A DNA stretch of 43,772 nucleotides from Nitriliruptorales bacterium (lineage in GTDB: Bacteria; Actinomycetota; Nitriliruptoria; Euzebyales; JAHELV01), in the NCBI GenBank assembly GCA_024644015.1, contig JAHELV010000030.1:1-43772 (forward strand), given 5' to 3'. Shown piece after piece: positions 12,891 through 14,270 of the stretch. The first letter of the stretch is position 1; the number at the start of each line of letters is the position of its first letter. The notes under the pieces were generated by a model. It was not told the origin of the DNA, did no database searches, and saw nothing but the letters and a program-made list of their open reading frames with translations. A program made the translations under genes and the position numbers.

Positions 12891-13007
12891 CGCCCCCGCC
12901 AGGACCGGACTGCAAGCGGCGCCAACCACCAATGCGGGCGATCATACGCACGCACCTACGGGATCGGTCGGAGGTTGCGCGGGCGCGTCGTGGTACGAGC
13001 GGGCAGA

Positions 13008-13043
13008 AAAGAAGACGGCCCGGGCCATGCAGGCCCGGGCCGT
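13008..13043 (-). terminator. strong Rho-independent terminator of the small unit
   Basis: A perfect 12-bp stem, ACGGCCCGGGCC (13015-13026) and its complement (13032-13043), encloses the 5-nt loop ATGCA. Read leftward it is followed by CTTCTTTTC, a T-rich tract, so it terminates minus-strand transcription. No long minus-strand gene ends here. The only candidate is the small unit starting near 13291. Confidence 0.85.
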
Positions 13044-13217
13044 CGGCATCCATCACTCGGCGTCGAACGTCACGATCCCCGGTGAGCACCGCTTGTGAGG
13101 GCGGTTCCGGGTGGGTGGGCGTGACCAACTCCCACGGACGAACGAGCGGGCGATGAGGGTGGTATCGCGAGGCACTTTGGTGGTCCGGTCGGATGCCTCG
13201 GTAGACCGGAAAGGGCG

Positions 13218-13265
13218 CTAGCGCCTCATCACCTCGACGGTCACGCTCGGACAATCAGAACTCAT
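13218..13265 (-). CDS. putative 15-aa peptide of a small transcription unit
   Basis: ATG 13265 opens a short frame, MSSDCPSVTVEVMRR, ending at TAG 13218-13220. It is preceded at 11 nt by AGGAGGTG, one of the longest anti-SD matches in the window, and by a promoter with 17-bp spacing. After the TAG the same frame stays open for 54 codons to TGA 13053-13055, ten bases before the terminator stem. The stop-proximal bases of the two parts are loosely similar (GTGAC..TCGA..TGATG). Possible readings are a leader peptide or dual-function RNA, a real short peptide, a gene broken by a nonsense change, or a sequencing error. I do not recognise the peptide. Confidence 0.45.
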   Translation of the reverse strand: MSSDCPSVTVEVMRR

Positions 13266-13297
13266 GCGTTGGACCACCTCCTCTCTGTCGTGCCGCC

Positions 13298-13326
13298 AGC
13301 ATGACATCGGACCTTGCGGATGGCAA
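13298..13326 (-). promoter_or_regulatory. sigma-70-like promoter of the small unit
   Basis: On the minus strand, TTGCCA (13321-13326) and CATGCT (13298-13303) are 17 bp apart, putting the transcription start near 13291 and giving a leader of about 26 nt before ATG 13265. It overlaps the upstream region of the divergent ygfZ gene. This is among the better matches to a housekeeping promoter in the window. Confidence 0.6.
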
Positions 13327-13361
13327 CGGCCAACCGCTCGGCTGCGCGCTACCGTCCAGGT

Positions 13362-14270
13362 ATGGCGCTTCTCGAAACGACGACCGCGACCGTCCCCCGT
13401 GACGTCGGCGTCATCCGGGTCACGGGCCATGACCGCCTGCGCTACCTGCACAGCCTGCTGTCCCAGCAGCTGGAGGAGGCACGGCCCGGGACCGTCGCGG
13501 ACTTCCTGTACCTCGACGCAAAGGGCACAGTGCTGGCCGAGGGTCGCGCGGTGGTCCGCGCCCCAGATGTCCTGCTGGCGCCGCCGAGCGCCGTCACGCC
13601 AAGCCTGTCCGATGCGCTCGGCAGGTTCACGTTCCTGCTCGACGCATCGGCCGAGGATCTGTCCGGCCACTGGCGCATGGTCAGCGTGCGCGGACCCGAC
13701 ACCGAGGGTCTGCCGGGTGCGCGCGCGCAGGCGATGACGGCGGCGCCACACGGAGACGGCGTCGTCATCCGGGACCGCTCCGGTGGTGTCGACTACCTCG
13801 GGCCGTCCGCATGGGTCGCCGAACGCGTCGCCGAACTCGGGCTGCCCGAGGCGTCGGTGCACGACTGGGAGCGCTGGCGGATCGGGGCCGCGCAGCCGGC
13901 ATGGGGGCGCGAGATCACGGCGGGCCGACGCACGCAGGAGCTCGGCCTCCTGCCCACCCATGTGCACCTGCGCAAGGGCTGCTACCCCGGTCAGGAATCG
14001 ATCGCCAAGATCTACAACCTCGGTCGCCCTCGGCGCGCGCTGTGGGTCGCCGGGTTCGACGCCGCGGTGCCAGAGGACGGCGAAGTGCGGGTCGGCGAAA
14101 AGAAGGGCGTGATCACAAGCGTCGCCTCCGACGGCCCGCGTACGATCGCCATGGCCCTGCTGCCGGTCGATCGCGACGGCAACCTGCCGGGCGACGACCT
14201 CGACGCCGACGGCGTCGCCGGTCGTGTGCTGCGACGGGTCGGCGACGGGCTGACCCAGCCGGGCGCATGA
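13362..14270 (+). CDS. ygfZ: YgfZ/GcvT-domain folate-binding protein
   Basis: A 302-aa protein of the YgfZ/IBA57 family, which uses a folate-binding GcvT-like fold to support synthesis or repair of certain Fe-S enzymes. The diagnostic K-G-C-Y-x-G-Q-E motif is present as LRKGCYPGQESIAKIYN (about residues 204-220), with LHSLLSQQL near residue 30. ATG 13362 is preferred over the frame's upstream start: TACCGT (13350-13355) lies six bases before it as a leaderless-type -10. It is divergent from the small transcription unit and followed by the phosphatase/kinase pair. Confidence 0.9.
   Translation: MALLETTTATVPRDVGVIRVTGHDRLRYLHSLLSQQLEEARPGTVADFLYLDAKGTVLAEGRAVVRAPDVLLAPPSAVTPSLSDALGRFTFLLDASAEDLSGHWRMVSVRGPDTEGLPGARAQAMTAAPHGDGVVIRDRSGGVDYLGPSAWVAERVAELGLPEASVHDWERWRIGAAQPAWGREITAGRRTQELGLLPTHVHLRKGCYPGQESIAKIYNLGRPRRALWVAGFDAAVPEDGEVRVGEKKGVITSVASDGPRTIAMALLPVDRDGNLPGDDLDADGVAGRVLRRVGDGLTQPGA

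Follow-up and report, generated by a model that had tools for sequence, protein, structure and literature searches.

A predicted small RNA of Nitriliruptorales, related to Ms_IGR-5, carries a conserved short reading frame that appears to pair with its own 3' part

RESULTS

The window analysed here (43,772 nt from a Nitriliruptorales bacterium) carries on its minus strand, divergent to ygfZ, a compact unit (13326–13004) composed of a promoter, a 16-nt Shine–Dalgarno (SD) sequence, a 15-codon open reading frame (sORF) and a strong terminator. The putative promoter consists of TTGCCA (13326–13321), a 17-nt spacer and the TG-extended −10 element TGTCATGCT (13306–13298), which includes the hexamer CATGCT; a simple, generic sigma-70 scan did not call it, and the alignment of relatives shows that its hexamers are kept, with GTTGCC and TGNCATNCT conserved in the order. 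The predicted intrinsic terminator (13044–13004) has a 13-bp GC stem with a T-rich tail (GACGGCCCGGGCC-TGCAT-GGCCCGGGCCGTC at 13044–13014, followed by TTCTTTTC) and is the best of seven such structures in 10 kb, against 2.2 expected in shuffled sequences. Direct inspection of the sequence found promoter, ribosome site, 15-codon frame and terminator all in place as the first-pass annotation had described them, and its proposal, an independent small transcription unit of ~280 nt that lies divergent to ygfZ and contains a translatable sORF, is borne out at the level of sequence. Loss of promoter, SD or terminator in close relatives, which the same annotation had put forward as the test of its proposal, was looked for, and all three were found retained. 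By its signals and its context the unit is a freestanding RNA with a predicted promoter and terminator of its own, and it would be both transcribed and translated in the Nitriliruptorales host itself.

The unit had been called an orphan with no recognized product, a view that did not survive the search for homologues. In 61 genomes searched at the nucleotide level, the segment running from the −10 element through the terminator is 86–89 % identical in the genus's three other species and 69–79 % identical in about 17 other genera of the order, with the homologous alignments ending close to these two elements; promoter hexamers, SD and sORF are conserved in the alignment of the order, as is a long structured 3' part. 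At the gathering score Rfam gave no match anywhere in the window (tmRNA, 6C, 6S and others included), and RF02471 run on 12950–13380 gave none even at E≤10, its curated cut-off being 45 bits. Two relatives (L009 and L013) match RF02471 below this threshold, with 20.6 and 19.4 bits and with the same landmarks aligned, and RF02471 matches 19 of 60 genomes across the phylum at loci with the same SD and sORF. RF02471 is Ms_IGR-5, a poorly studied ‘Actinobacteria sRNA’. In the opposite direction, the covariance model R1, for which 18 sequences from the window's order were the sole input, recovers all 12 RF02471 loci tested, with E-values of 7e-15 to 2.5e-4 and over the full length of the model. Judged by this reciprocal covariance detection, the window RNA is homologous to Ms_IGR-5; given that its score lies below the Rfam cut-off, it should be regarded as a divergent relative and not as a formal member of RF02471. 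The two share the extended SD, the position of the sORF and its stop, the helix H2 (see below), the motifs GCGAATYCC and GTCACCCG and, in Mycobacterium, the synteny with ygfZ and nitrobindin, while the Rfam consensus differs in having neither the helix H1 nor the pseudoknot between reading frame and loop, and Rfam types Ms_IGR-5 as an sRNA gene without a reading frame, in contrast to the window RNA with its sORF.

Where they were recognized, the neighbouring genes of the homologues stand in fixed orientation. Wherever ygfZ was found it lies divergent upstream (60 of 60 loci, among them those of the window's order, Mycobacterium, Actinomadura, Nocardiopsis and Frankia), and a nitrobindin (THAP4-like) gene is convergent downstream in all 42 loci where it was found. 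Other neighbours in fixed orientation are Fur, divergent upstream (21 loci), a class IV aminotransferase, co-directional upstream (27 loci), and DsrE, co-directional downstream (18 loci). Since the downstream nitrobindin gene is convergent in 42 loci, we argue that the RNA is freestanding and has no general role as a cis-acting leader. The grouping of ygfZ, Fur, aminotransferase, nitrobindin and DsrE-family genes, seen at 13218–14270 of the window and in the ygfZ loci, keeps its orientations across actinobacterial orders.

Within the phylum, R1 matches 55 of 198 genomes, each of them once, and a strict pattern combining SD and sORF matches 78 of 296 sampled genomes, 77 of them in single copy; with the pattern reversed as a control, no listed genome gave a match. 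Among the carriers are Mycobacterium, Nocardioides, Amycolatopsis, Actinomadura, Frankia, Cellulomonas, Micromonospora, Ilumatobacter and Thermoleophilia. Two genomes have two copies of the RNA (G024 on contigs C38 and C8, G597 on contigs C163 and C207), nearly all others one. Two pattern matches lacking the architecture (L160 and L172) were discarded as chance. The exact pattern has no match in 2.9 million viral contigs, and an origin from phages or plasmids was rejected, there being no phage match and, in plasmids, only one 42-nt match to the terminator region.

The extended SD, AGAGAGGAGGTGGTCC (13286–13271), is complementary over 16 nt to the 3' end of 16S rRNA, GGATCACCTCCTTTCT. Against the genome's own 16S 3' end, 16 pairs in a row are possible, two of them G–U, which take in the whole of that end, and thus the ribosome site is stronger than had been noticed at first. 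The pattern AGAAAGGAGGTGRTCC, with up to two mismatches allowed, occurs at exactly two sites in the 4.0-Mb genome, namely the small RNA and the complement of the 16S 3' end, the latter confirmed as SSU rRNA; across the homologues examined the SD is near-invariant. A potential anti-SD mimic, GGACCACC (13186–13179), the perfect complement of the SD part GGTGGTCC, is present in the window's own genus and in a minority of the other homologues (20 of 164 loci, against 0.2 in shuffles). Sequestration of the SD by this mimic as a universal feature was rejected, the mimic being limited to that subset of loci.

The sORF, MSSDCPSVTVEVMRR (13265–13218), runs from ATG to TAG through 15 codons and contains, 9 nt before its stop codon, an in-frame SD-like GAGGTG (Glu-Val; 13235–13230) that is present, always at this distance from the stop, in all homologues obtained by DNA or covariance-model search. 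Counting starts 2–12 nt after GGTCC whose frame is open to GAGGTG, we found ATG, GTG or TTG in the predicted frame in 150 of 168 loci (the two alternative frames give 0 and 41), and stop codons TAG in 133, TGA in 23 and TAA in 12; the loci from the pattern scan were pre-selected for SD, GAGGTG and a stop-like end, and those found without the pattern (L004–L034 and L043–L064) have the same frame, start and stop features. TTG starts are frequent, and CTG, ATT, ATC and ACG stand at the same place in other loci (L044, L048, L050, L055, L028, L123, L029, L106 and L121). In Escherichia coli, ATT is the kind of start that IF3 discriminates against in infC, so a link of such starts to initiation fidelity could be tested. 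At position −7, Thr is encoded by all four of its codons across the homologues, but these codons coincide with a pairing strand and selection for the amino acid is hence not proven; residue −8 varies between Arg, Gly, Trp and Val. Read-through of the TAG into the frame open downstream was considered and rejected, as neither the identity of the stop nor the downstream frame is conserved.

The predicted fold ties the end of the sORF to the RNA downstream of it. In helix H1, supported by RNAalifold and covariation, the last sORF codons (GGTGATGAGG, 13233–13224) pair with CCTCATCGCC (13158–13149); in H2/H3 (13223–13161) the stop-codon region, CGCTAGCGC, pairs with GTGCCTCGCGA around an inner hairpin (CCGGTC, 13209–13204, with GACCGG, 13190–13185). 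A first pseudoknot (PK1) would join GCGTGACC within the sORF (13246–13239) to GGTCACGC (13126–13119), located in the loop of the hairpin GTGGG...CCCAC (13135–13115), and a second (PK2) the loop GGCATCC (13197–13191) to GGATGCC just before the terminator (13051–13045). PK2 can form in all those members of the order whose sequence is complete, and occurs there in the compensatory variants CGCATCC/GGATGCG, TGCATCC/GGATGCA and CAGCATCC/GGATGCTG. Given nothing but a MAFFT alignment of the 18 sequences of the order, RNAalifold recovers H1 (downstream strand CCTCRTCRCC), H2 at the stop codon and PK1 (GTGACC/GGTCAC, sORF with 3' loop) unprompted, and 12 of 35 pairs in that alignment have changes on both sides. 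Across the wider set, 99 of 165 loci contain their own PK1 partner, where 2000 permutations gave 51 on average and 70 at most, and the variable part of H1 is paired in 68 loci, against 48 when permuted (maximum 64 in 1000). An alignment of 100 sequences, which was itself fitted to the structure by the model, gives double changes in 24 of 29 pairs (483 cells, against 146 when shuffled), a signal destroyed in this model-fitted alignment by sliding the partner. Folded singly, the window sequence reaches a minimum energy only modestly below that of shuffles (z −2.0), and its fold has other long-range pairings mixed in; when a ribosome was set on the start or the stop codon, folding yielded no clear single alternative state.

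Published data support expression of the homologues. Ms_IGR-5 carries ribosomal reads (Ribo-seq) in M. abscessus and M. smegmatis, with the authors' caution that non-coding RNAs are also covered by such reads (PMC4974804); a transcript of it was detected in S. lividans (PMC8079986), in S. avermitilis it corresponds to an sRNA transcription unit (PMC8780764), and in M. smegmatis it overlaps an sRNA detected by RNA-seq (PMC10454040).

The scan with the SD and sORF pattern of the phylum also returned acidobacterial metagenome-assembled genomes. With up to two mismatches, ACTGAGAAAGGAGGTGGTCC was found in 29 of the 151 genomes sampled from a single acidobacterial class, and its reversed control in 3; in 26 of the 28 loci read, an ATG or GTG 2–10 nt after GGTCC opens a frame of 12–20 codons, and 24 of these 26 frames close with EV and three further residues, in the typical form (T/P)REVADC/ADS. 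Upstream lie TTGACA-like and TAxxxT promoters, downstream often T-tailed hairpins. Many loci have a long complement of the end of the frame downstream (up to 15 pairs), which permutation cannot separate from sequence similarity, and their H1-like pairing did not beat permutation. Between the phyla, the N-terminal parts of the peptides score a similarity of 20.2, against a maximum of 19.3 in 60 shuffles. A sequence profile of the actinobacterial 3' domain finds no acidobacterial RNA except L073 (E 1e-3), and homology between the phyla therefore rests on SD, sORF and architecture; common descent is likely, though not proven. Rfam has no match at the small RNA in any of ten acidobacterial loci, and these RNAs probably deserve a family of their own. 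The same set of a TTGACA-type promoter, ATCACTGAGAAAGGAGGTGGTCC, a frame ending in REVADC/ADS and a terminator, again with no Rfam match, was seen at L186–L210, L111, L146 and L183.

DISCUSSION

Ms_IGR-5 has so far been named but left uncharacterized: the few open-licence papers found name it in lists only, in which neither the sORF nor the pairings presented here are described. A conserved sORF in an RNA of this type thus seems not to have been reported before, and the same seems to hold for the covarying pairing of its last codons with downstream RNA in a long helix and a pseudoknot. With a conserved and probably translated frame, a covarying pairing scheme, single-copy spread through much of the actinobacterial phylum (mycobacteria, Streptomyces and Frankia included) and an acidobacterial counterpart, an anonymous sRNA becomes a testable translation-coupled RNA.

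Comparison across genomes argues for homology, a conserved frame, conserved pairings and a freestanding position, and on this basis we suggest, at roughly even odds (about 0.5), that the unit is a translated sRNA whose fold is opened by ribosomes on the sORF, that is, a freestanding RNA of ~280 nt which is at the same time a mini-mRNA, found phylum-wide and with Ms_IGR-5 as its mycobacterial branch. The SD would recruit ribosomes by pairing with the entire 16S 3' end; these would translate 12–15 codons and stop 9 nt past the internal GAGGUG. While the RNA is free, H1 would pair the last codons with the sequence downstream, and the middle of the frame would be held in the pseudoknot with the 3' hairpin loop. 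With codons of the frame so engaged in H1 and PK1, a translating or terminating ribosome would have to open the domain, and the shape of the RNA should consequently report whether it is being translated; it is because of this geometry that we propose gating. The terminating ribosome may in addition be retained at the stop by GAGGUG. The output would most likely be in trans, through target pairing by the freed 3' domain or through ribosome retention, and not through control of a neighbouring gene. Among the three readings offered by the first-pass annotation, the dual-function sRNA is accordingly the one we keep, the small-protein gene being the weaker and the leader peptide disfavoured.

An alternative, which we consider somewhat unlikely, is that the RNA works mainly by binding ribosomes, holding or counting 30S subunits or terminating ribosomes as a trap or a sensor of free ribosomes, with peptide and trans pairing incidental. 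The 16-nt SD complementarity, unique in the genome and near-invariant in homologues, fits such a role, as do its recurrence in Acidobacteriota, the anti-SD mimics of a minority of the RNAs, the weak starts (often TTG, but also CTG, ATT, ATC and ACG) and a GAGGTG so placed before the stop that it could re-pair with the anti-SD. However, productive initiation may be all that an extended SD brings about, as reported for Staphylococcus aureus, also with non-canonical starts (PMC13009471); trapping needs a high copy number; and ribosome binding by itself leaves the elaborate conserved 3' domain unexplained.

It is more doubtful that the unit is a small-protein gene, with the peptide of 12–20 residues as functional product and the remainder a structured 3' UTR. 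Conservation of frame, start and stop, the C-terminal Glu-Val of every actinobacterial homologue examined, the REVADC/ADS of most acidobacterial peptides (with varying Cys/Ser codons) and the greater than shuffled likeness of the N-terminal parts between phyla would all be expected of a protein. Yet many of the conserved codon positions fall within pairing strands (GGAC-N, GGTG), the amino acid at −8 is not kept, 12 residues are very short and, within the order, the RNA outside the frame is at least as conserved; this option is weaker because RNA pairing can explain most of the conservation of the frame.

That the RNA is a leader or attenuator of the downstream acyltransferase gene (12932–11637) is highly improbable, for although that gene is the next on the same strand, just past the terminator, and a frame overlapping a paired region followed by a terminator resembles an attenuator, what lies downstream varies between loci (a convergent nitrobindin gene in 42, DsrE in 18), the terminator itself and the convergent gene speak against the leader-peptide option, and the S. 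avermitilis homologue was classed as an sRNA transcription unit (PMC8780764).

The translation-gated RNA that we favour shares with leader-peptide attenuators, as generally understood, the expectation that translation of a short frame rearranges the RNA downstream, but differs from them in ending in its own terminator, with no conserved downstream gene and often a convergent one next to it. With the dual-function sRNAs SgrS/SgrT and SR1 it has in common a freestanding small RNA, a short frame, here one predicted to be translated, and a structured 3' part; unlike in these, its frame stands directly at the 5' end, preceded by an SD that can pair with the whole 16S 3' terminus, and its final codons serve as strands of its own covarying helix and pseudoknot. 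The extended-SD upstream frames of S. aureus likewise combine an extended SD, non-canonical starts and small frames, but those are starts of ordinary mRNAs and of leader frames (PMC13009471), whereas the window RNA is a separate conserved RNA gene.

A bolder version, offered tentatively, is that this is an ancient single-copy RNA of Actinomycetota and Acidobacteriota in which a frame of 12–20 codons, loaded through an SD pairing with all of the 16S 3' end, serves as a gate, in that the in-frame anti-16S GAGGUG would hold the terminating ribosome and this ribosome would switch the fold of a conserved pseudoknotted domain, so that the RNA would read out translational capacity and act in trans. 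Two minor observations concern the acidobacterial loci. At L199 and L200 the frame has EG in place of EV, and the paired strand has changed to match (GCAGGGAGGG/CCCTCCCTGC), and at L194 (1714–2119) an RNase P RNA lies ~200 nt from the small RNA on the opposite strand.
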